Source: Sphingobium sp.
GTDB lineage: Bacteria > Pseudomonadota > Alphaproteobacteria > Sphingomonadales > Sphingomonadaceae
DNA: 43,866 bases
Direction: 5' to 3'
Assembly (NCBI GenBank): GCA_017984895.1
Contig: JAGNYO010000016.1
Span: 1-43,866 of the forward strand
Numbering within the stretch: the first letter of the stretch is position 1; the number at the start of each line of letters is the position of its first letter. Both the position numbers and the translations under genes were made by a program. The notes below the pieces were generated by a model, which saw only the letters and a list, made by a program, of their open reading frames with translations, ran no database searches and was not told where the DNA came from. Positions 28,142 through 40,050 of this stretch are shown one piece after another.

Positions 28142-28277
28142 AATTACGGCCCAGGCATTCCCGGCGGCACCCCCTCAGCCTATGGTAAATCCCTGTGCAC
28201 ATGTTTTACAGCGCATTTACCAGTTTTTGACAGCTTCGGCGCTAAGCGGACCCAAGCAAAAAAGCTGTGGGGACTTC

Positions 28278-30083
28278 ATGACTATACATCACTTCGCGCG
28301 TCGTGGCACGAGCGCGCTGATCGCGCTTGTTTTCATTGCAATTCTGGCTTCGGGTATCGCGATCAGGGAAATCGGCTTTGCCGGACCCCTGTTTCAGAAA
28401 AATCAGTTACAAAGCGATCTGGTGGCGGACATATTGCCCCCGCCGCTCTATATTATCGAACCTTTCCTGGAGGCGACCATCATGGTCGAGGACCGGGAAA
28501 CCATGGGGCACGCGGATAATCTCGTTAGCCTGCGTCGGCAGTATGAGGAGCGCAAAGCCTTCTGGCGGACGGCCGACATCTCGGACACACTCAGGCAGCA
28601 GATGGGAACCACCCAGAAAAGCGCGGAGGCGTTTTGGAGGGATGCGGACACCCTCGTTGCGGCGGCCCAGACCGGCGACTGGGTGGGTGCCAAGACCATC
28701 CACGACACCCGGCTGACACCGACCTACATCGCGCACAAGGCGGAGATCATCAAGCTCGTCACGCTTGCCGAACAGGAACGACAAAAGCTGAATGAGCACA
28801 GCGCGATATTGTTCGCGCTTTCCATCGGCGGGCTGCTCCTTTCCGCCGGGGCGATCATGACGGCACTCATCGTCGGGGCGCGGCAGATCAACAGTCGTAT
28901 CGTCAAGCCACTCGGCGATACTGCCACGGAAATGCGTCAGATGGCAGCCGGCCATTATGACATTCCCCTGTCTGGCCAAGGCCGGGCCGATGAAATCGGC
29001 GAGATGGCGACAGCTATGCTCGTGTTCCGCGAGGCAGGCCTCGCCAAGGCCCAGGCGGAAGTGCGGCAGCGTCGGGTCGTTGCAGACCTCGGCGAAGGGC
29101 TGGGGCAGCTCGCCGCCGGCAACATGACTCACCAGATAGAGTCGCCCTTTGCACCGGAATACGAGGGGCTGCGCGCCAGCTTCAACCGCACGATGACAGA
29201 CCTTGGCACCATATTGTCTCGGGTTACGGAATCGGCCACCAATGTCGACACAGGCGCGACCCAGATCCGCGCGGCGGCGGACGATCTGTCTAGTCGCACC
29301 GAGCAGCAGGCCGCCTCGCTGGAAGAAACCTCCGCTGCGATGAACACCGTTATGACCATGGCGCAGGAAACGGCGAAGGCCCGCACCGGTGTGCGCGACG
29401 CGATCGACGAGGCGCACCGCGAAGCGCGCGCTGGCGGCACTGTCGTGCAGCACGCGGTGACGGCGATGGGCGAAATCGAGGCATCTGCCCAGCAGATCAG
29501 CCAGATCATCTCGGTGATCGACGGCATTGCCTTCCAGACCAACCTGCTCGCACTCAATGCGGGTGTGGAGGCGGCGCGGGCGGGAGACGCAGGCAAAGGG
29601 TTCGCCGTTGTCGCCAACGAAGTGCGGGCGCTCGCGCAGCGCTCCGCCGATGCCGCGCGCGACATCAAGAATCTCATCACTACCAGCGCCGATCAGGTCG
29701 AGCAGGGCGTCACTCTTGTTGGCGAGACGGGCAACATGCTCGGCCGTATCGTCGGCAAGGTAAGCGAGGTGAGCGATCTCATCACCAGCATGGCGAATTC
29801 TACCGATACCCAGGCGCAGAACATGATGCAGGTGCATGGCACCGTGACCGAGATAGACACGATGACGCAACAGAACGCCGCAATGGTGGAAGAGACGACT
29901 GCTGCGGCCCGCAGCCTGGCCAGCGAGGCGCATAATCTGCGGCAACTGGTTTCGCGTTTCCGCCTTGATGGTCAGGAGGCATGGCGCCCTTCATCAGCTC
30001 TGCCCCGCGTCTCCCCTGCGCGGTCATCGGGCGGTGGCAACCTCGCTATCGCCATGCCGGCTGACGACTGGAGCGATTTCTAA
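28278..30083 (+). CDS. Methyl-accepting chemotaxis receptor, periplasmic-sensing
   Basis: 601 aa. TM1 is at about residues 12-30, a helical sensor domain of about 145 residues follows (KNQLQSDLVADILPPPLYII, PTYIAHKAEIIKLVTLAEQE), then TM2 at about 175-198. HAMP signalling follows (IVKPLGDTATEMRQMAAGHY), then a second HAMP-like segment (GEGLGQLAAGNMTHQIESPF), then the methyl-accepting domain with the hairpin tip [20 protein letters not shown]. The C-terminus DWSDF matches the xWxxF tether that recruits CheR/CheB in other bacteria. Ligand unknown. GGGG at 28269-28272 precedes the ATG. It heads the chemotaxis cluster. Confidence 0.93.
   Translation: MTIHHFARRGTSALIALVFIAILASGIAIREIGFAGPLFQKNQLQSDLVADILPPPLYIIEPFLEATIMVEDRETMGHADNLVSLRRQYEERKAFWRTADISDTLRQQMGTTQKSAEAFWRDADTLVAAAQTGDWVGAKTIHDTRLTPTYIAHKAEIIKLVTLAEQERQKLNEHSAILFALSIGGLLLSAGAIMTALIVGARQINSRIVKPLGDTATEMRQMAAGHYDIPLSGQGRADEIGEMATAMLVFREAGLAKAQAEVRQRRVVADLGEGLGQLAAGNMTHQIESPFAPEYEGLRASFNRTMTDLGTILSRVTESATNVDTGATQIRAAADDLSSRTEQQAASLEETSAAMNTVMTMAQETAKARTGVRDAIDEAHREARAGGTVVQHAVTAMGEIEASAQQISQIISVIDGIAFQTNLLALNAGVEAARAGDAGKGFAVVANEVRALAQRSADAARDIKNLITTSADQVEQGVTLVGETGNMLGRIVGKVSEVSDLITSMANSTDTQAQNMMQVHGTVTEIDTMTQQNAAMVEETTAAARSLASEAHNLRQLVSRFRLDGQEAWRPSSALPRVSPARSSGGGNLAIAMPADDWSDF
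29496..29690 (+). repeat. Near-identical receptor hairpin-tip segment, copy 1
   Basis: These 195 bases differ from 31040-31234 at only 7 positions counted by eye, although the two receptors diverge on both sides, including at third codon positions. Confidence 0.9.
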
Positions 30084-30247
30084 AATAAGCGCTCCAGCAC
30101 GCGCTGATTGGTCGCGTAGAAATATCTCGGGCTACCGGCGCGCCGGATACGCTCCGTTAACCAATTTCTTATAGCACTATCAGGATAAATACATGGACCG
30201 ACGGCGTGAGGGGTTCACATCGTAGCGAGTCCGGGGAGAACGGAACT

Positions 30248-31651
30248 ATGCTCGACTGGTTCAAACGGCAAGCGCCGATCCGAGTCAAATTCAAGGCACT
30301 TCTGGCAATTCACGGCGTGTGGGGCGTGTGTGGCGCAGCGGCGACAGTCCTGGCTGGCATGGGTATGACACCCATCGCCTATGGCCTTGCGGCTATCGCA
30401 CTGGCAGGCGCGGTGGCCACGGTCGTCATTTCAGGAAAGCTCATATGCGAGCCTTATGTCGATACTGTGGTGCGGATGGAAGGACTCGCCCTGGGCGATC
30501 TGGACAGCCAGATCCACTATTCCGACCATAGCGATTGCGTAGGCCGCATGGTCACCGCCATGGCCAGCTTCCGCGACAACGCGCGGGTGGTGGCGCTCAG
30601 CTCCAAAATATCGCAGGAAGTGGTCGAGGTGCTCGGCAACGGCCTTTCCAGGCTGGCAGAGGGCGACCTCAGTGTTCGTATTACCGAAGGCGTGCCCAAG
30701 GAATATGAGAGCCTGCGTGGTGATTTCAACCGGGCGATGGAGAGCCTGTCCGAAGCGATGACATCGGTAACGCATACTTCGCGCGCGATCCATGCGGGCG
30801 CGGGAGAAATCCGCGCCGCCACCAACGATCTTTCGATGCGCACCGAGCAGCAGGCGGCATCGCTCGCCGAATCTGCCAACGCGATGAACGAGATCACCGG
30901 CATGGTGAAGGAAACCGCGCACAGCGCTTCCCAGGTAACCAACGCGATCAGCGATGCCCACCGCGAGGCCAGCGAGGGCGGCAAGGTCGTCGACAAGGCG
31001 GTCACGGCGATGGGCGCGATCGAGAAAAGCTCTCAGGAAATCAGCCAGATCATCTCGGTGATCGACGGCATTGCCTTCCAGACCAACCTGCTCGCCCTCA
31101 ATGCGGGTGTGGAGGCGGCGCGGGCGGGAGACGCCGGCAAAGGGTTCGCCGTTGTCGCCAACGAAGTGCGTGCGCTCGCGCAGCGCTCGGCGGAGGCCGC
31201 GCGCGACATCAAGAATCTTATCACTACCAGCGCCACGCAAGTGGGCGAAGGCGTCAACCTCGTCGGCGAGGCAGGTATCATGCTGAGCCGTATCGTTACC
31301 AGAGTGGGAGAGATCAGTGCGCTCATCTCCACCATCTCGGAATCGACCGAAACGCAGGCCGCCGGCCTCCAGCAGGTCAATTCCTCGGTCAACGAAATGG
31401 ACAAGATGACCCAGCAGAATGCCGCCATGGTCGAGGAATCGACCGCCGCCGCGCGCAGTCTCGCCAATGAAGCCGAGGATCTCAACCAGCTCATCACCCG
31501 CTTCAAGCTGGCGGGGGGCGCAGGCTCCTCATTCAGCGCCGCACCATCGAAGCCGCGCGTATCGACCAACCTTTCCTCCTCGCGCCCGATGACGCGAACC
31601 AGCGGCAACCTTGCCATCGCCCCCGACGCCGATGACTGGTCGGAATTTTGA
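30248..31651 (+). CDS. Methyl-accepting chemotaxis receptor, second copy, short sensor
   Basis: 467 aa. Two closely spaced membrane helices (about residues 20-39 and 43-63) leave almost no periplasmic part, so sensing is probably cytosolic or membrane-linked. HAMP-like segments ([40 protein letters not shown]) lead to the methyl-accepting domain with [20 protein letters not shown]. The C-terminus DDWSEF is again an xWxxF tether. The start at 30248 follows GGGGAGAA. It lies 164 bases after the first receptor and 32 bases before the STAS gene. Confidence 0.92.
31040..31234 (+). repeat. Near-identical receptor hairpin-tip segment, copy 2
   Basis: Partner of 29496-29690 at a constant offset of 1544 bases. 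Both encode the tip that contacts CheA and CheW. Confidence 0.9.
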
Positions 31652-31683: not shown

Positions 31684-31962
31684 ATGATTATACTTCCAGC
31701 AGTGATAGATCGCACCACGGCCAGTGCTCTTATTTCTCATCTCGATCAGGCGCTTCAGCCTGAAACGGAGATTGTGGTGGAAGGGCGGGATGTGACCCGT
31801 ATCGGGCAATCTGGCCTGCAACTCATGCTCAGTGCCCAACAAACAGCCGTGGCACGTGGCGTTTCCATGACAGTCCATGCCTCGCCGGCGATGTTCGGTG
31901 CGGCACAGATCGCCGGACTGACGGGTGCATTCAACTGGATCGGACACCGCGATGACCAATGA
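31684..31962 (+). CDS. STAS-domain protein of the chemotaxis operon
   Basis: 92 aa, a single STAS (anti-anti-sigma-like) domain: [20 protein letters not shown], then [20 protein letters not shown], where the serine in GQSGLQ is in the place normally phosphorylated in SpoIIAA-type proteins. Such proteins occur at the head of several alphaproteobacterial che operons; in a few species they influence CheA or adaptation, but this one's role is unknown. Its stop overlaps the cheA start by 11 bases. Confidence 0.85.
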
Positions 31963-34270
31963 TGAAATCCAGAATATCTTTTTCCTGGAATGTGAAGAGG
32001 CGCTGGGCCAGGCCGAGGAAGGCCTGCTGGCGTGCCGGTCAGGCACGGCGGATGCCGACACGGTAAACGGCATCTTCCGCGCGGTGCACTCGATCAAGGG
32101 CGGGGCGGGCGCATTCAGCTTCTCCTTGCTGCAAGCCTTCATCCACAAGTTCGAGACAGTGCTCTCCTATGTGCGCGATGAGGAACTGGGCCTGAGCGAA
32201 GCGCTCAACACCCTGATGCTGCGCGCGTTCGACATATTGGCCGATCATGTCGCCGCCGTGCGGGGCGAAGGCGATACGCCGGACGACGCCGCGATAAGCG
32301 CCGAACTGGAAGATGTTGCGGCCAAGGCGGCGGCTGGCGTGCCGGTGTTCGACGAACCGGCCGAGAGCGCGTGCGACGAGCCCGCCGAACCCGCGCAGGA
32401 CGATGGCACAGCAACGGATGACCTGGGCCTCGATTTCGATCTCGACGGTCTGATGGGCGATCTTTCCGTCGATGAGGAACAAGCCGCCGCGATGGAAGCC
32501 GCCGCCGCTGAAGTCGAGCGGTCCATGGACGAGCGGGACGCTGCGCGCGTCACCAAGGCAGCCGCGAAGCTGGCCGCCGAGAATGCTTCCGGCGACGAAC
32601 ATCATGGCTGGCGGGTCTATGTCCGCTTCCTCGATGGCGCGCTTGGCAACGGCAGCGAGCCGCTGTTGATGCTGCGCGAGCTGGAGGAAATGGGCGCCCT
32701 GTGCCTGGCAGCCGACGCCAGCGCCATCCCGACGCTCGATGCGCTGGATGTCGAGAAAGCCTATCTTTCCTGGACCTTCTTCGTCCCCGCTCACATCGAG
32801 AAGAGCGCGATCGAGGAAGTGTTCGATTTCATCAACAACGAGTGCGAGCTGAAAATCGAGGTGCTCCACGCACCCGTTGCCCGCGATACGATCGAAGTCC
32901 GCTTGCCGCATATTGCGGCAGCCACCCCGAAAAAGCCTAAGGCGAACACCGCACCGGCAACTACAGCCACCAGCATAACGCCCGCTTCCCAAACGGCACC
33001 AGCCGCTCATCCCGCCAAGGTCGCGCTGGTGGAAACGCCGGCCCCGGTTGCGCCCGCCGCGCCCGCCGCTGCGCGCACTGCCGCCTCCGTCGGCCAGACG
33101 GTGCGCGTTGATCTGGCCAAGCTCGACAAGCTCATCGACACCGTGGGCGAACTGGTGATCGCGCAGGCGATGATGGCCCAGCGTCTCGCCAGCCACGGCC
33201 TCAACTCCATCGACGAGATGGGGATGCTCGATCTTCTCACGCGCGACATACAGGAAAGCACGATGTCCATCCGCGCACAGCCGATCGGCTCCGTATTCTC
33301 GCGCGTGCCGCGCATCGTGCGCGAGCTGGAAGCGGATACCGGCAAGCGCGTCGTCCTCACCATGAGCGGTGAAGCCACCGAGCTGGACAAGACGGTGGTG
33401 GAACGCCTCGGTGAGCCACTGACGCACCTCATCCGCAACGCGGTCGATCATGGCATCGAGAAGCCGGACGTGCGCCTTGTCAATGGCAAGCCCGCCGAGG
33501 GCAAGCTGCACCTTTCCGCCGAGCAGCGGTCTGGCCGCATCGTCATCTCCCTTTCGGATGACGGCGCAGGCATCAACCGCGAAGTGGTGCTGCAAAAGGC
33601 GATCGAAAAGGGCTTGGTCGCGCCAGGCACCCAGCTCTCCAACGAGGAGATCGACCATCTCATCTTCGCGCCCGGTTTTTCGACCGCGGACAAGGTTTCC
33701 AACATCTCTGGCCGCGGCGTCGGCATGGATGTGGTGAGACAGAACGTCAAGGATCTGGGCGGGCGCATTTCCATCGAATCGCACCCCGGCAAGGGCTGCA
33801 CCTTCACGCTCGCGCTGCCGCTCACCCTTGCGATTGCGGACGGCATGATCGTTACGGTCGGTGATCAGACGGTGGTGATCCCGCTCACGCATGTGCTGGA
33901 GAGCCTGCGGCCCGAACAGGCCGATGTCCAGCATATCGGCAAGGATCTGATGGTATTGAACAACCGTGGCAAGTTCCTGCCGATCGTGCGGCTCGATCAT
34001 GCGGTCGGTGCACTGGGGGCGGCCGATACGGCCCAGGACGCTGTGCTGATCGTTGTAGATACCGAAAGCCATGGCCAGGCCGTGCTGATGGTGGACAGCA
34101 TCGTCGACCAGCGCCAGTTTGTCATCAAGAGCCTGGAGGCGCATTATCAGCCGGTTACCGGCGTAGCGGGCGCCACCATATTGGGTGATGGCAAGGTCGC
34201 CCTGATCCTCGATGTCGACTCGCTGGTGGCAGACAATTTCGCCCACCACGGGAGCGCGCTGGCGGCATGA
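31952..34270 (+). CDS. cheA: Chemotaxis histidine kinase CheA
   Basis: 772 aa cytosolic kinase. Domains in order: HPt (about 1-110, with the phosphorylated His in [15 protein letters not shown]), an acidic linker, a second globular domain (about 215-310, [20 protein letters not shown]) common in alphaproteobacterial CheA, an Ala/Pro/Thr linker, dimerisation helices ([20 protein letters not shown]), the ATP-binding domain ([11 protein letters not shown] as the N box, [11 protein letters not shown] as G1, GRGVGMDVV as G2), and the CheW-like P5 domain to the end. It relays receptor signals to CheY and the CheB proteins. The start at 31952 was chosen because it gives the standard MTNDEI HPt start. 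It is coupled by overlap to STAS and cheR. Confidence 0.96.
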
Positions 34271-35139
34271 ATCAGCTCGCTCAGGAGAGTTTCACACCCT
34301 TTCCGGGGATTAGCGCGCAGGTCTACTCCCGCGCTGATTTCGAGGCGGTGCGCGACATCGTTTACGACATCGCGGGGATCGTCCTCCCTGCCGGCAAGGC
34401 GACCCTGGTCTATTCCCGGCTCGCTCCACTGGTGCGGGACAGCGGCCAACAGACCTTCTCCCGCTATATCGACTTCATCAAGAAAGACGACGCTGCGCGG
34501 CGCAAGACCATCAATGCGCTGACCACCAATCACACCTTTTTTTATCGCGAGAGCCATCATTTCGAGCATCTGGCGCAACAGGTGCGGCCCCTGCTGCTGG
34601 ACAAGATTCGTTCACGCCAGCCAGTGCGGATCTGGTCCGCGGGCTGCTCGACCGGAGAAGAACTCTACTCGCTGGCAATGACTCTGCTGGGACCGGACAA
34701 GCTGGGCGCCCGTCCGTTTTTGGAAGGCAACCTCGCGATACTCGCCACCGACCTTGCCGACCACGCCGTCGCAGGCGCGAAAGCCGCGATCTATCCGTTA
34801 GAGGCACTGAAGGACGTGCCCCCCGCCCTCACCCAGACCTGGGTGAAGCGCGACGGAGACAAAGCGAAGATCGCCCCCGAATTATGCGCCAAGATTCACG
34901 TCAAACGCCTTAATCTGCTCGGCGACTGGCCGATGAACAAGCAGTTTGACGTGATCTTCTGTCGCAACGTGATGATCTATTTCGACCAACCCACCAAGGA
35001 CAGGCTGGTGGCGCGGTTCGCTGATCAGCTCCTGCCCGATGGGCACCTTTACATCGGCCACAGCGAACGTGTCGCCGGGCCGGCGCAGGAGGTTCTCAAC
35101 CTGGTGGGAAGCACGATCTATCGAAAGGGGCGGATGTGA
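34267..35139 (+). CDS. cheR: Chemoreceptor glutamate methyltransferase CheR
   Basis: 290 aa. It methylates receptor glutamates using SAM. The N-terminal helical domain (FEAVRDIVYDIAGIVLPAGK) is followed by NHTFFYRESHHFEHL, the SAM site IWSAGCSTGEELYSLAM, and FDVIFCRNVMIYFDQPT with SERVAG near the end. The stop overlaps the cheB start by four bases. The xWxxF tails on both receptors fit a tethered CheR. Confidence 0.95.
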   Translation: MNQLAQESFTPFPGISAQVYSRADFEAVRDIVYDIAGIVLPAGKATLVYSRLAPLVRDSGQQTFSRYIDFIKKDDAARRKTINALTTNHTFFYRESHHFEHLAQQVRPLLLDKIRSRQPVRIWSAGCSTGEELYSLAMTLLGPDKLGARPFLEGNLAILATDLADHAVAGAKAAIYPLEALKDVPPALTQTWVKRDGDKAKIAPELCAKIHVKRLNLLGDWPMNKQFDVIFCRNVMIYFDQPTKDRLVARFADQLLPDGHLYIGHSERVAGPAQEVLNLVGSTIYRKGRM

Positions 35140-36194
35140 ACACACGGGTTTTGATAGTCGATGACTCGGCAACCATGCGGGCGATATTGTCGCGCCTGCT
35201 GGGTAGCGAGCCGGACATAGAAGTGATCGGCACGGCAAAGGACGCGATGGAAGCGCGCGGGATGATCCGCGAACTCAATCCTGATGTCGTGACGCTCGAC
35301 ATCGAAATGCCGGGCATGAACGGCCTCGATTTCCTGGAAAAGATCATGCAGCTCCGCCCGATGCCAGTGGTGGTGGTTTCCGGCATCACCCGCAAGGGCG
35401 CCGATACCACGATCCGGGCGCTGGAGCTGGGCGCGGTCGATTGTTACGCCAAGCCCGATGGCTCGGTGAACGCCATGCTCGAAAGCGATGGCGGCACCCT
35501 CGCATCCATGGTGCGCGAGGCAGCGCGCGTGCGGTTTGTGCGGGTAGCGAGCAAGCCCGCGGTCCCGGTCAGCCCGGTGGCGCAGCAGACCATTGTTGCC
35601 TCTCGTTCGACCAGCGCGATCACCAAGCTGATTGCCATCGGCGCATCGACGGGTGGCGTGGAGGCCTTGCACCACCTGCTGCCCGCCTTTCCCACCACCT
35701 GCCCCCCCACGGTGATCGTCCAGCATATCAGCGCGGCGTTCGCGCCCGCCATGGCGGAGCGGCTCGACCGGCAATGCAGCGCCACGGTAAAGCTGATCGA
35801 ATCGGGCGAAGTCCTGAAACCCGGCCATATCTATATCGCACCGGGCAACGACAAGCATGCCATCGTCGGCGGCGGGACAGAGACACTGATCGCCAAGATG
35901 ATCGAGGGAGACAAGGTTTCCGGCCACCGCCCCAGCATCGACGCCATGTTCGAATCGGTCGCGCAAAAGCTCGGGCCGGCGGCAATCGGCATCCTGCTGA
36001 CCGGCATGGGCCAGGATGGCGCACGAGGACTGCTCGCCATGCGCCGCGCGGGTGGCCGCACCATTGCGCAGGACGAGGCCACCAGCACCGTCTATGGCAT
36101 GCCGCGCGCTGCGGCGGACATGGGAGCCGCCGAAAATATCCTTCCCCTGCCCCGCATAGCGGAGCGCGCACTCTCGGCTGCTGGCTTGCAGTAA
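35136..36194 (+). CDS. cheB: Protein-glutamate methylesterase CheB, complete catalytic triad
   Basis: 352 aa. The receiver domain (phospho-acceptor Asp 55 in TLDIEMPGMNG) is followed by a linker and the esterase domain. The triad is complete: Ser in IAIGASTGG, His in VIVQHISAAF and Asp in LTGMGQDGARG. It removes methyl groups from receptor glutamates when phosphorylated by CheA. The start is GTG, in the overlap with cheR. cheD starts directly at the next base after its stop. Confidence 0.95.
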   Translation: MNTRVLIVDDSATMRAILSRLLGSEPDIEVIGTAKDAMEARGMIRELNPDVVTLDIEMPGMNGLDFLEKIMQLRPMPVVVVSGITRKGADTTIRALELGAVDCYAKPDGSVNAMLESDGGTLASMVREAARVRFVRVASKPAVPVSPVAQQTIVASRSTSAITKLIAIGASTGGVEALHHLLPAFPTTCPPTVIVQHISAAFAPAMAERLDRQCSATVKLIESGEVLKPGHIYIAPGNDKHAIVGGGTETLIAKMIEGDKVSGHRPSIDAMFESVAQKLGPAAIGILLTGMGQDGARGLLAMRRAGGRTIAQDEATSTVYGMPRAAADMGAAENILPLPRIAERALSAAGLQ

Positions 36195-36746
36195 ATGCGG
36201 CACGATCCCGATCTTATTGTCGGCGGCCCGGCCCGCATCACGGTAATGCAGGGGCAGGTCTATGTCGGCACCGGCGCGCCTGAAATCCTGACAACCGTGC
36301 TCGGCAGTTGCATCGCCTGCTGCCTTTACGACCCGATAGCGCGGGTAGGCGGGATGAACCATTTCCTGCTCGCAGAGCCATCGCCGGGAAGCGGCACTGT
36401 AGCCGATCAGAATTACGGAATTTTTCTGATGGAGCTGCTTATTAACCAGATGATGACACGTGGCGGTGTAAAGTCCCGCATGAAAGCGCACATTTACGGC
36501 GGAGGAAACATGCACCGGGGAATGACCCGAATCGGGGATGCCAACGCGCGTTTCGCGCAGAGCTTCCTCATGGAGGAGGACATCCCGATTGTGCGGCAGG
36601 ACATAGGCGGGGAGATGGCCCGCAGGGTCGATTTCGATCCGATCCTGGGACGAACCCGCTGCCGGCATGTGGAGAAAATCGCGGTGCCCACAAGCAAACC
36701 GATTACATTGCCCGCATCGGGTGGCGGCGAGCTGGAACTGTTTTAA
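36195..36746 (+). CDS. cheD: Receptor glutamine deamidase CheD
   Basis: 183 aa. It deamidates receptor glutamines to glutamate. The Cys and His of the catalytic triad are visible: TTVLGSCIACCLYD (Thr and Cys) and GGMNHFLL (His). IYGGGNMHRG and GDANARFAQSFLMEEDI are the other family motifs. Its position between cheB and cheY fits a role in adaptation; in some bacteria CheD also binds CheC or CheX, neither of which is seen here. Confidence 0.93.
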   Translation: MRHDPDLIVGGPARITVMQGQVYVGTGAPEILTTVLGSCIACCLYDPIARVGGMNHFLLAEPSPGSGTVADQNYGIFLMELLINQMMTRGGVKSRMKAHIYGGGNMHRGMTRIGDANARFAQSFLMEEDIPIVRQDIGGEMARRVDFDPILGRTRCRHVEKIAVPTSKPITLPASGGGELELF

Positions 36747-36765
36747 GGAAGAAGAGGCCTGTTCT

Positions 36766-37143
36766 ATGTCTGAGTCAATTCGTGTTCTGACCGTGGACGA
36801 TAGCGCCAGCATGCGCGCTTTGTTGCGGTCTGCCCTCTCATCGCGCGGCTATCAGGTGGCGCAGGCAGAGGACGGCGTCGCCGCGCTCGAATGGCTGGCC
36901 GACAACGGCAGCGACATCGACGTGATCGTGACCGACATCAACATGCCGCGCATGGACGGCTTCGGCCTGATCGAGGCTTTGCGCGGCCAATCCCGCTTTC
37001 GCGACTGCCCGATCCTCGTGCTGTCCACCGAAAGTTCGGACGAGAAGAAGGCGCGCGCCCGCTCCGCCGGGGCGACCGGCTGGATCGTCAAACCTTTCGA
37101 CGCGGACAAACTCGATACGGCTTTGCGCCGGGTAACACATTGA
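36766..37143 (+). CDS. cheY: Response regulator CheY
   Basis: 125 aa single receiver domain. Acidic pair DD at 11-12, phospho-acceptor Asp in VTDINMPRMDGFG, Thr/Ser switch in VLSTESSDEKKARARSAGAT and the conserved Lys in WIVKPFDAD. Once phosphorylated by CheA it binds the flagellar motor switch. AAGGAAGAAGAGG lies upstream, though the spacing to the ATG at 36766 is long. No cheZ was seen in the window. Confidence 0.92.
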   Translation: MSESIRVLTVDDSASMRALLRSALSSRGYQVAQAEDGVAALEWLADNGSDIDVIVTDINMPRMDGFGLIEALRGQSRFRDCPILVLSTESSDEKKARARSAGATGWIVKPFDADKLDTALRRVTH

Positions 37144-37173: not shown

Positions 37174-37614
37174 ATGGCACGTCAGCTCATCACTTTTCAT
37201 CTTGGCACCCAGAGCTTCGGCCTGGACATCATGGCGATCCGCGAGATCCGCGCATGGTCGCCCACCACGCGTCTGCCTCATGTTCCGCATTATGTCGCGG
37301 GCGTCGTCAATCTGCGGGGCACTGTGCTTCCGGTCATTGATCTGGCGGCGCGACTGGGCTGGGAGCCTACCTCGCCGACCGACCGCCATGTCATCATTGT
37401 GGCGCAGATCGGCGGGCAATTGCGCGGTCTGATCGTGGATGCGGTGAGCGACATCGTAACCGCGCAGGATGAGGACATCCAGCCGCCTCCCGCCACCACC
37501 ACCGATGGGGTCGTCCCCTATCTCGAAGGACTGGTGGCACTGGAGGACCGTATGGTCATGGTGCTCGATCTGCCCGGCCTGACGACCGATGTCGATCTGG
37601 CCGAAGCTGCCTGA
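37174..37614 (+). CDS. cheW: Chemotaxis coupling protein CheW
   Basis: 146 aa. SH3-like scaffold joining CheA and receptors. LITFHLGTQSFGLDIMAIRE at the N-terminus, HYVAGVVNLRGTVLPVIDLA in the middle and VDAVSDIVTAQDEDIQPPP later are standard CheW motifs. It follows cheY by 30 bases with GGGGACTGGAG before the start. Confidence 0.95.
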   Translation: MARQLITFHLGTQSFGLDIMAIREIRAWSPTTRLPHVPHYVAGVVNLRGTVLPVIDLAARLGWEPTSPTDRHVIIVAQIGGQLRGLIVDAVSDIVTAQDEDIQPPPATTTDGVVPYLEGLVALEDRMVMVLDLPGLTTDVDLAEAA

Positions 37615-37681: not shown

Positions 37682-38761
37682 ATGGCTGCAATTAAGGTTC
37701 TGGTCGTCGATGACTCGATCACGATGCGCGCCCTGTTTTCGAACGCGCTCGAACAATCGAGCGATCTCCTCGTTGTCGGCGCCGCCGCCAACGCCGATGA
37801 AGCGCGCGAGATGATCGAGGAGATGAGGCCCGATGTCGTGACGCTTGACATCGAAATGCCCGGAATGAACGGCATTGATTTTCTGCACGAGATCATGACG
37901 ACGAAGCCGATGCCGATCGTCATGCTGTCCACCCTGACGCAGAAGGGCGCGGAAGTGACGCTGAAGGCGCTGGAGCTGGGCGCGGTGGATTGCTTCCCCA
38001 AGCCCACCAAGGCGACTCCTGACGAATTCGCCAAGATTTCCGGCAAGCTGTGCAAGCTGGTGGCGACCGCTGCCAAGAGCAAGGTCAAGAAATACGACCC
38101 GGAGGCAGCCGCCGCGGCCGCAGCCAAGGCAGCGGCATCGCAGGCAAGCATGGGTGCCGCAAAGCCCTACAAGTGGAACGGCACGATCGTCGCGCTGTGC
38201 GCCTCGACCGGCGGTGGCCCCGCCGTTCTCGAATTACTGACCGCCTGGCCCGCCAACTGCCCGCCTACCATCGTCTTGCAGCAGCTCGAGGAAGGGCTGG
38301 CCGCTCCGTTCGCCGCGCGCCTCAACGAGGCAATCGCACCAGACGTAAAGCTGGCGGAGGACGGCATGATGCTCCAGCCGGGGCAGGTCTATGTCCTCTC
38401 CGCGCCAGACAAGCACGGCCTCGTCGATCGCTGGCCCGGCGGCGCGATTCGCCTCGTGGCGCGCGACCCTGTGAATGGCGTGCGCCCTTCCGCAGACCTG
38501 CTGCTCACCACCGTGGCGAAAGCCGCGCGGGACAAGGCGGTGGGCGTCATCCTCTCCGGCGCAGGCACAGACGGCGCGGCAGGCATGGGCGCGGTCAAGC
38601 AGCTTGGCGGGCTGACGCTCTGTCAGGACAAGGAAAGCGCGATGGTATTCGAAGCGTCTGCCGCGGCGATCGCCAAGGGCGCGGTCGAGGCGCAGCTCTC
38701 GCTTGCCGATCTCGCCAAGGTCATCCTATCCCGGTGCGAGGAGCGGGATCTTGCGGCCTGA
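37682..38761 (+). CDS. CheB-like protein with degenerate methylesterase site
   Basis: 359 aa. An intact receiver domain (DD at 10-11, Asp 56 in TLDIEMPGMNG, Lys 107) is joined by an Ala/Lys-rich linker (about 128-160) to a CheB-type esterase domain. The nucleophile Ser 175 (LCASTGGG) and Asp 297 (SGAGTDGAAG) are kept, but the catalytic His of the QH motif is Gln 201 in IVLQQLEEG. The GMP motif near the C-terminus is VFEASAAA and the R-H-R-P-S segment is GVRPSAD. The protein is probably not an active methylesterase but can still accept phosphate. It may be a phosphate sink or a binding competitor of the true CheB encoded at 35136. Automated annotation would likely call it an ordinary CheB. Confidence 0.85.
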   Translation: MAAIKVLVVDDSITMRALFSNALEQSSDLLVVGAAANADEAREMIEEMRPDVVTLDIEMPGMNGIDFLHEIMTTKPMPIVMLSTLTQKGAEVTLKALELGAVDCFPKPTKATPDEFAKISGKLCKLVATAAKSKVKKYDPEAAAAAAAKAAASQASMGAAKPYKWNGTIVALCASTGGGPAVLELLTAWPANCPPTIVLQQLEEGLAAPFAARLNEAIAPDVKLAEDGMMLQPGQVYVLSAPDKHGLVDRWPGGAIRLVARDPVNGVRPSADLLLTTVAKAARDKAVGVILSGAGTDGAAGMGAVKQLGGLTLCQDKESAMVFEASAAAIAKGAVEAQLSLADLAKVILSRCEERDLAA

Positions 38762-38798
38762 GCCTTGCCCTCTCACTCCTAACGCCTCATGTGGCCCC

Positions 38799-39050
38799 TT
38801 GATCGCGCTGGAGCACCTGCGCGTCAAGATTGCTGCCGAGCTGGATCAGCTACGAGAGGACATGGAGGAAATCGGCGTGCAGCTCTGCCTCGACGAAGAG
38901 GTGATGCTGCGCTGCATGTCGCACCTCCAGCGCCTCGATGAAATGGGCCAGCGCAGCAACTGGCTCGCCGCGATGGTGCGCGCCTCCAACCCGTCCGAAG
39001 TGATCCCCGAGATCACGCTACAGACGCTGGCGGACCGCCTGAAAGAGTGA
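38799..39050 (+). CDS. Small helical protein at the end of the chemotaxis cluster
   Basis: 83 aa if it starts at TTG 38799. The segment IALEHLRVKIAAELDQLRED, then EEVMLRCMSHLQRLDEMGQR and ITLQTLADRLKE suggests two or three amphipathic helices, probably a coiled coil. No ATG or GTG in frame gives a sensible start; TTG codons at 38703 and 38751 would extend it into cheB-like coding sequence. No family recognised. It might be a chaperone or a partner of the che proteins, only because of its place. Confidence 0.55.
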   Translation: MIALEHLRVKIAAELDQLREDMEEIGVQLCLDEEVMLRCMSHLQRLDEMGQRSNWLAAMVRASNPSEVIPEITLQTLADRLKE

Positions 39051-39125: not shown

Positions 39126-39956
39126 CTATCCGGCATAGGGCGGACAGTGCAGACCCTTGGGGCTGATCGTGAAAATCTCGCAACCCGTTTCCGTAATGCC
39201 GATGCTATGCTCGAACTGGGCGGAAAGGGTGCGGTCCCGCGTTACTGCGGTCCAGCCATCCTCCAGCATACGGATGCCGGCCTTGCCGATATTGATCATC
39301 GGTTCGATGGTGAAGAACATGCCGGGTTTCAGCTCAGGGCCGGTGCAGGGGATGCCGACATGCACGACTTCGGGGCTGTCATGGAACACACGCCCCAGCC
39401 CATGCCCGCAAAAATCGCGCACCACGCCATAGCGGTGCTTTTCGGCATGGCGCTGGATTGCATATCCGATATCGCCCAGATGGCCACCCGGTTTCGCCTG
39501 CTCGATGCCCAGCATCAGGCATTCATAGGTCACTTCGACCAACCGCCGTGCCTTGATCGGAGCCTCACCCGCGATATACATGCGGCTGCTGTCGCCATGC
39601 CAGCCATCGACCATCGGTGTTACGTCAATATTGACGATATCGCCCTCGGCCAGCCGTCGATCGCCAGGGATACCGTGGCAGATCACCGTGTTGATCGAGG
39701 TGCAGCAGCTATGCTCATAGCCGCGATAGCCCATGGTAGCGGGCACGCCGCCACCGTCTATCGTCATGCGGCGGACTATATCATCCAGCTCGCCGGTGCT
39801 GACGCCGGGCACCACATGCGGCACCAGCGCGTCAAGGATCTCGGCAGCGAGGCGTCCTGCCTTGCGCATGCCGGCAAAACCGCTCTCGTCATAGAGCTTG
39901 ATCGCGGTCGAGCGGGTTGGCGGGCTTTCCGCGGTCATCGTCATGTAATCAGTCAT
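39126..39956 (-). CDS. map: Type I methionine aminopeptidase
   Basis: 276 aa metal peptidase that removes the N-terminal Met from new proteins. The five metal ligands are visible in order: both Asp in IVNIDVTPMVDGWHGDSS, the His in FCGHGLGRVFHDSPEV, the Glu in FFTIEPMINIG and the Glu in FEHSIGITETG. TMGYRGYEHSCCTSINTVIC is the substrate-side motif. The ATG at 39956 (MTDYMT) and the next one are possible starts; the codon at 39965 is less likely. It is divergent from the GFA gene across 94 bases. Confidence 0.95.
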   Translation of the reverse strand: MTDYMTMTAESPPTRSTAIKLYDESGFAGMRKAGRLAAEILDALVPHVVPGVSTGELDDIVRRMTIDGGGVPATMGYRGYEHSCCTSINTVICHGIPGDRRLAEGDIVNIDVTPMVDGWHGDSSRMYIAGEAPIKARRLVEVTYECLMLGIEQAKPGGHLGDIGYAIQRHAEKHRYGVVRDFCGHGLGRVFHDSPEVVHVGIPCTGPELKPGMFFTIEPMINIGKAGIRMLEDGWTAVTRDRTLSAQFEHSIGITETGCEIFTISPKGLHCPPYAG

Positions 39957-40050
39957 GCGCCACAATATAACCGGATATGGTTAAGATTACGAGGGGCTTG
40001 ATTGGCCCGGTCGTTCGGCGCAAAGTCCTCGGCGTTACAAGGAGCGCGTG

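Follow-up and report, generated by a model that had tools for sequence, protein, structure and literature searches.

CheB is the textbook adaptation enzyme of chemotaxis. In E. coli and Salmonella, it binds to C-terminal receptor tethers of the xWxxF type; the site for this pentapeptide lies on residues 130-140 and, by modelling, exists only when the protein is open and phosphorylated, and a catalytically dead S164A phospho-mimic was among the forms measured for receptor binding (available portion of PMC8609364). CheB2 of R. sphaeroides has been modelled as a phosphoryl carrier between CheA proteins, with its two roles described as confounding each other's test, and the same source names CheY1 of S. 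meliloti and CheY6 of R. sphaeroides as sink response regulators, CheY6 also driving the motor (available portion of PMC2924250). S. meliloti further possesses CheT, a protein with a DXXXQ motif that enhances the dephosphorylation of one of its two CheYs and binds CheR (accessible sections of PMC12654446). Among the top-ranked titles and abstract openings of the PMC literature, a collection that leaves most subscription papers outside, we found no description of a catalytically dead CheB.

The window analyzed here is the whole 43,866-nucleotide stretch of Sphingobium sp. contig JAGNYO010000016.1 (assembly GCA_017984895.1, positions 1 to 43,866 of the forward strand), and it contains a chemotaxis operon with two CheB-like genes. 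The first of these (CheB1; 35136..36194, + strand) has intact active-site residues, in agreement with the original prediction of a complete CheB in the same operon. The second, which we call pseudo-CheB (37682..38761, + strand; 359 aa), was identified from the ORF list, its domain matches, and NCBIfam NF001965, the model that names proteins with a receiver and a CheB domain CheB, which accepts it at 330.7 bits against a cut-off of 293 despite its lost active site. Both parts that mark membership of the CheB family by descent are found in pseudo-CheB, namely an N-terminal receiver domain (residues 6-110; 37697..38011, + strand) and a C-terminal CheB_methylest domain (residues 170-348; 38189..38725, + strand), the latter predicted to be inactive. 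The receiver site is complete, with D10, D11, S83, K107, and the predicted phosphorylation site D56 (codon 37847..37849, + strand) all present, as had been claimed. The original prediction also held that Ser 175 and Asp 297 are kept and that the QH motif reads QQ, and alignment to Salmonella CheB (1a2o) bears this out: Ser175 (codon 38204..38206, + strand), Gln201 (38282..38284, + strand), and Asp297 (38570..38572, + strand) fall on the residues of 1a2o that we take to be the catalytic Ser, His, and Asp, respectively, the triad of the window protein reading SQD. Likewise, the GMG segment reads GAG, with Ala294 (codon 38561..38563, + strand) at the position of the oxyanion-hole Met, GMP is replaced by EAS (residues 324-326; 38651..38659, + strand), and SGHRPS of CheB1 corresponds to NGVRPS; the EAS replacement and the alteration of the RHRPS segment had both been read correctly. 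The predicted structure of pseudo-CheB (pLDDT 79, pTM 0.74) resembles 1a2o with a TM score of 0.83, so the dead domain should still fold. At the level of sequence, these comparisons confirm a full-length CheB relative with a broken active site and a fully kept phosphate switch.

We searched for pseudo-CheB in the genus (94 genomes), in 397 genomes of the family, and in 396 genomes of the order. Orthologues with at least 60% identity are present in 11 of the 94 genomes of the genus, the window's own genome counted, and others occur elsewhere in the Sphingomonadaceae; named carriers include Sphingobium fluviale, S. subterraneum, and Sphingobium sp. DEHP117. All 11 genus orthologues stand behind CheA, CheB1, CheD, and CheY, and the small ORF described below adjoins each of them (that of L073 is too divergent for the first search, and CheW is undetected in L072). 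The catalytic His is absent from all 11, while Ser is kept in 10 and Asp in 11. Whether Gln is fixed in a clade, as the original prediction asked, depends on depth: it nearly is among these close relatives (Q in 10, E in 1), and it is not in the wider clade, where it accounts for 37 of 71 sequences. The wider comparison rests on 131 rows, 116 of them distinct, comprising 71 pseudo-CheB rows (55 from the genus and family searches, plus the 30 best order-level matches, minus duplicates) and 45 other CheBs; the residue-by-residue reading covered part of what the family and order searches matched. A complete triad is found in none of the 71 pseudo-CheB rows versus 44 of the 45 other CheBs, the 45th being cut by the end of its locus, and receiver residues D10, D11, D56, and K107 are present in 71/71 pseudo-CheB rows. 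Besides Gln, the His position holds P in 9 rows, A in 8, R in 7, H in 4, N in 3, and E, G, or S in 1 each. Relatives with His, which had been named as potential evidence against the original prediction, therefore do exist, yet all four of them have Asp or Glu at the Ser position, so that no row among the 71 has a complete triad. Ser is found in 53 of the 71 rows and Asp in every one; the oxyanion Met itself is kept in 31, and Glu, Gln, or Asp mostly stands for the Gly of GMP.

Outside the 71 rows are six strongly eroded members (L197-L202), which have lost both Ser and His and kept the receiver, and two plasmid-borne members without the His, from Novosphingobium sp. EMRT-2 and Sphingomonas parapaucimobilis YK209. 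Two of the eroded members (L197 and L198) have a still intact receiver, and the search for other che genes recognized none within 20 kb of them. The che genes that include the plasmid-borne pseudo-CheBs lie on plasmids of 757 kb and 201 kb (L289 and L290), and in YK209 the CheB1, CheD, CheY, CheW, pseudo-CheB, and small genes follow the same order as in the window. In a phylum-wide control, Ser, His, and Asp are all present in 70 of 70 CheB domains (the 30 best and 40 further matches listed), a sample that includes only listed matches and favors the better-scoring ones; since weak matches fall outside this control, further dead CheBs may occur elsewhere.

The pseudo-CheBs form one clade, with a FastTree support of 1.0 for the 71 rows and an SH-aLRT value of 100 in an IQ-TREE quick tree of 35 rows. 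In the latter tree, the CheB1s of the same operon type join them in a group (96), from which the CheBs of a second operon type are separate. We propose a single origin of pseudo-CheB within the Sphingomonadaceae, through duplication of the CheB that the operon already had, and retention of the copy for its receiver. On a 68-row tree that takes in five of the six eroded rows, the minimum number of changes is 0 at D10, D11, D56, S83, K107, and D297, compared to 5 at Ser, 11 at His, and 16 at the oxyanion Met. The active site has been lost in different ways between lineages, and the receiver residues are unchanged. Median dN/dS values (NG86, nine genomes), which like all such figures given here are rough because synonymous sites are near saturation, are 0.065 for the receiver, 0.16 for the linker, and 0.097 for the dead domain of pseudo-CheB, and 0.096, 0.43, and 0.130 for the receiver, linker, and methylesterase domain of CheB1. 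For the five closest genomes, the corresponding values are 0.039, 0.086, and 0.051 for pseudo-CheB and 0.022, 0.130, and 0.070 for CheB1, so that the CheB1 receiver is the more constrained of the two within this group. Pseudo-CheB is under purifying selection. Several positions also mark the clade in the 71 rows: E70, F105, and G167 (71/71 each), L273 (70/71), and W165 (67/71). Selection and these conserved positions together indicate that pseudo-CheB has been kept for something other than the known catalysis and that the dead domain is no free ballast.

These observations bear on two explanations. One is neutral decay, in which pseudo-CheB would be a duplicate becoming a pseudogene. The wide variation of the active site between lineages would suit such a process, but the pseudo-CheBs are a single old clade with dN/dS near 0.1, unchanged receiver residues, and full-length frames (332-364 aa, in rows selected by long matches). 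Neutral decay is thus already contradicted by the present results, and we consider it extremely improbable. Strain-specific decay is ruled out by the orthologues in the genus and the wider family, the lack of any complete triad, and purifying selection. The other explanation is that pseudo-CheB is still an enzyme, be it an esterase, a deamidase, or something else, with a catalytic arrangement that does without the His. The frequent Ser, the invariant Asp, and the Glu, Gln, or Asp that mostly replaces the Gly of GMP speak for it, but within this one clade 18 of the 71 rows lack the Ser, and a Gln, Pro, or Ala in place of the His would not be expected to serve as a general base; we judge this explanation to be quite unlikely. 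Judged by the pattern of conservation, the most likely role of pseudo-CheB is that of a phosphate competitor that can be switched, or of a docking protein, and not that of an enzyme. The predicted loss of catalysis, together with a kept and selected receiver, is well supported and is more general than the original prediction could tell.

Upstream of pseudo-CheB on the + strand are two MCP genes whose products carry C-terminal xWxxF tethers (28182..30083, ending DWSDF; 30206..31651, ending DWSEF), a gene for a STAS protein (31684..31962; weakly similar to the S. meliloti STAS protein, at 8.6 bits) placed between MCP and CheA as in S. meliloti, cheA (31925..34270; start as listed, with a later start possible), an ORF that we take to be CheR by its frame and synteny (34267..35139), CheB1, CheD (36195..36746), the CheY of the operon (36757..37143; start inferred), and CheW (37174..37614). 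After the che genes, on the other strand, is an ORF (39126-39965, - strand) that is presumably a type I methionine aminopeptidase. The order in the window is therefore MCP-STAS-CheA-CheR-CheB-CheD-CheY-CheW-pseudo-CheB-CheT-like, with one CheY, and that in S. meliloti is receptor-STAS-response regulator-CheA-CheW-CheR-CheB-response regulator-CheD-hypothetical. The other operon type of the Sphingomonadaceae has the S. meliloti core, Y-A-W-R-B-Y-D-small protein; it includes two CheYs and lacks pseudo-CheB. Both operon types occur in the window's genome, the second being found at L168 (G000:C6, 14067-17091), where CheR-CheB-CheY-CheD-CheT-like genes are arranged as in S. meliloti, the CheB is intact, and the contig ends inside the cluster. 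Other clusters of this genome also hold CheY-like proteins. A search of the genome with the Pfam models of CheZ and CheX found neither.

Among 49 loci with CheA, pseudo-CheB is present in 26 of the 29 with at most one CheY and in 1 of the 20 with at least two, a contrast that mainly represents two operon lineages and is therefore close to one evolutionary event and weak as statistics. The sole locus with both two CheY matches and a pseudo-CheB (L176) has its second CheY match at the edge. Three one-CheY loci have no pseudo-CheB in reach: two come from other families, one of them with a second CheY cut by the locus edge, and the third has its pseudo-CheB elsewhere in the genome, at L177 (G141). 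This locus is separate from the main che operon, and its pseudo-CheB and small gene have an MCP and a distant CheA-like ORF as neighbors. The contrast does tell something about operon anatomy, in that pseudo-CheB is found where a second response regulator is lacking. Two other arrangements were observed. In a divergent one (L179-L181 and L200-L202), pseudo-CheB is encoded on the other strand, at that end of the cluster which holds CheA, and CheY and the CheT-like gene lie apart from it. In the other (L115, L116, L118, L119, L129, and L131), CheY, pseudo-CheB, and the small gene stand together, and no other che gene was recognized in the 10-kb stretch.

We favor, at close to even probability, the interpretation that pseudo-CheB is a dead, phosphorylatable CheB paralogue that acts as a phosphate sink in place of a second CheY, with its dead domain probably docking at the receptor tether. 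What would be expected of a sink is a complete phosphoacceptor site encoded together with CheA, which pseudo-CheB has; the lack of a second CheY in its operon and of CheZ and CheX in its genome is supporting rather than strictly defining. A sink would also take up phosphoryl groups, including those of CheY~P by way of CheA, and reduce the lifetime of CheY~P. Since the phosphoacceptor site is kept, we infer that CheA~P phosphorylates Asp56 of pseudo-CheB, which would compete with CheY and CheB1. Lacking an esterase output, pseudo-CheB~P could only bind or be dephosphorylated, and it would thereby drain phosphoryl groups from the signaling pool, filling the second-CheY slot of the S. meliloti-type operon.

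The small gene next to pseudo-CheB was absent from the original prediction. It is a helical CheT-like ORF (38751..39050, + strand) whose inferred TTG start overlaps the pseudo-CheB stop, and it contains DEMGQ, an instance of the DxxxQ motif (38937..38951, + strand). No Pfam family matches it at the gathering score. A DxxxQ ORF lies at most 500 nt downstream of 46 of 55 pseudo-CheB genes, the motif itself having served as a filter. A profile of the small protein, built from 28 rows, has 49 members in 60 loci across both Sphingomonadaceae che operon types, with DxxxQ in 49/49, a count that is partly circular since 27 of the 28 seed rows came from the motif-filtered list; the members from the other operon type were picked without using the motif. 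When 136 ORFs from loci of S. meliloti and E. coli were searched with the profile, only one gave a good match (~18 bits, E 1.6e-5), namely the ORF that follows cheD in S. meliloti Ak57, and the DxxxQ motifs of the two are in register. Comparison of the profile with this protein by hhalign gives E 1.8e-4 and a probability of 49%. The Ak57 protein is annotated as hypothetical and was taken as CheT by position. A CheZ-like origin of the small ORF was not supported, given an hhalign probability of 0.4% to E. coli CheZ and the missing Pfam match; Foldseek with the model of the small protein, a weak one (pLDDT 67), gave no CheZ match at E 0.001. A profile search against the PDB returned designed coiled coils (best E 0.00089) and two ArsR-type regulators, which we took as chance matches. 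The small ORF is a candidate CheT-like DxxxQ phosphatase.

This candidate modifies the earlier proposal of a phosphate sink that replaces CheZ. The failure to find CheZ or CheX by Pfam and the lack of a second CheY in most pseudo-CheB operons are in keeping with that proposal, but with a CheT-like candidate directly downstream, dephosphorylation need not rest on pseudo-CheB alone. Instead, the CheT-like DxxxQ protein, or intrinsic hydrolysis, may return pseudo-CheB~P to its free form. A different connection between the two gene products is also conceivable, in which pseudo-CheB~P binds or recruits the CheT-like phosphatase candidate and so sets the place and time of CheY~P destruction. The close linkage of the two genes in 46 of 55 loci and their possible overlap in the window point in this direction, as does the reported complex of S. 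meliloti CheT and CheR, itself a che protein (accessible sections of PMC12654446). However, two-CheY operons contain the CheT-like gene but no pseudo-CheB, the two genes are apart in the divergent arrangements, and we regard such recruitment as rather improbable.

The docking part of the sink interpretation concerns the receptors. Besides the pair in the operon, the genome has one more tethered MCP, which ends DWAEF (3 of 10 loci taken from the 12 MCP matches in the genome, one of them without a reading), and 39 of 47 MCP ORFs in the sampled che loci have an xWxxF end. By alignment to Salmonella CheB, residues 128-140 of pseudo-CheB (38063..38101, + strand), at the end of alpha5, are the counterpart of the pentapeptide-binding segment. 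K132, K134, and Y138 of pseudo-CheB stand at Salmonella R132, R134, and H138, conservative replacements at positions that are not strict across the pseudo-CheB family. The dead domain may be kept for docking, probably at the receptor tether, and a docked sink would act at the array, where it may also shield receptors from CheB1.

Shielding could also be the whole function. Phosphorylated, open pseudo-CheB would then bind the xWxxF tether or the methylation helices and keep CheB1, and perhaps CheR or CheD, off the receptors, damping adaptation at high CheA activity, with phosphate removal as a side effect. The tethered MCPs, the basic residues and aromatic residue kept at the docking positions of the window protein, a linker more conserved than that of CheB1 (dN/dS 0.16 vs 0.43), and a conserved dead domain with its clade-specific W165, G167, and L273 are consistent with such competition, as are the modelled restriction of the tether site to phosphorylated, open CheB in E. 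coli and Salmonella and the inclusion of the dead S164A phospho-mimic among the forms measured (available portion of PMC8609364). On the other hand, the docking residues are not conserved throughout the family, and the most eroded members (L197-L202) have unrecognizable active-site loops and an intact receiver. Moreover, two-CheY operons (L188, L190, and L196) are also near tethered MCPs, yet are without pseudo-CheB, and in six loci pseudo-CheB accompanies CheY and the small gene rather than CheR or CheB. We consider competition for receptors possible but doubtful. A sink, alone or with docking, takes up about one half of our expectation, and pure competition about one quarter.

The sink interpretation agrees with the single CheY of the operons, the failure to find CheZ or CheX, the frequent linkage with CheY and the CheT-like gene, and the known sinks of the class. 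The conserved dead domain and the tethered MCPs agree with receptor binding, which is compatible with a role as a sink. Several observations count against a sink. If pseudo-CheB were nothing more than a sink, it could do without a conserved dead domain of about 180 residues. The third catalytic residue, D297, never changes on the tree, and in the five closest genomes the receiver of pseudo-CheB is under weaker constraint than the CheB1 receiver (0.039 vs 0.022). The contrast between one- and two-CheY operons is close to a single evolutionary event, and CheY-like proteins occur in other clusters of the genome. The CheT-like gene, finally, is also found in two-CheY operons without pseudo-CheB, and separately from pseudo-CheB where the arrangement is divergent.

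Pseudo-CheB appears to be a natural separation of phosphorylation from esterase activity, and it bears on how bacteria without CheZ end the signal. More speculatively, and with well under even probability, a receptor-tethered, phosphorylation-gated sink made from a dead adaptation enzyme, together with a minimal CheT-type phosphatase, may have replaced the sink CheY of the S. meliloti type. If so, it would be a signal-termination element of a new kind that couples receptor occupancy to CheY~P removal.

Pseudo-CheB shares with CheB (Salmonella 1a2o; Pfam PF01339, NCBIfam NF001965) its domain order, fold, receiver site, and descent, but has lost the catalytic His, the oxyanion Met, and the GMP loop, and in some lineages the Ser as well. 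The small ORF resembles the presumed CheT of S. meliloti in its DxxxQ motif, which is in register, but the similarity is weak, the S. meliloti protein is longer (124 aa vs 99 aa from the inferred start), and it is encoded behind cheD rather than behind a pseudo-CheB. Like R. sphaeroides CheB2, pseudo-CheB would be a case of a CheB receiver that handles phosphoryl groups besides esterase control, whereas the methylesterase activity of CheB2 is required for normal chemotaxis (available portion of PMC2924250). With the sinks S. meliloti CheY1 and R. sphaeroides CheY6, pseudo-CheB has in common a phosphorylatable receiver encoded with CheA in an alphaproteobacterium, in this case one in whose genome Pfam finds neither CheZ nor CheX. 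The sink CheYs are single-domain proteins, whereas pseudo-CheB is no CheY and carries a conserved dead esterase domain.
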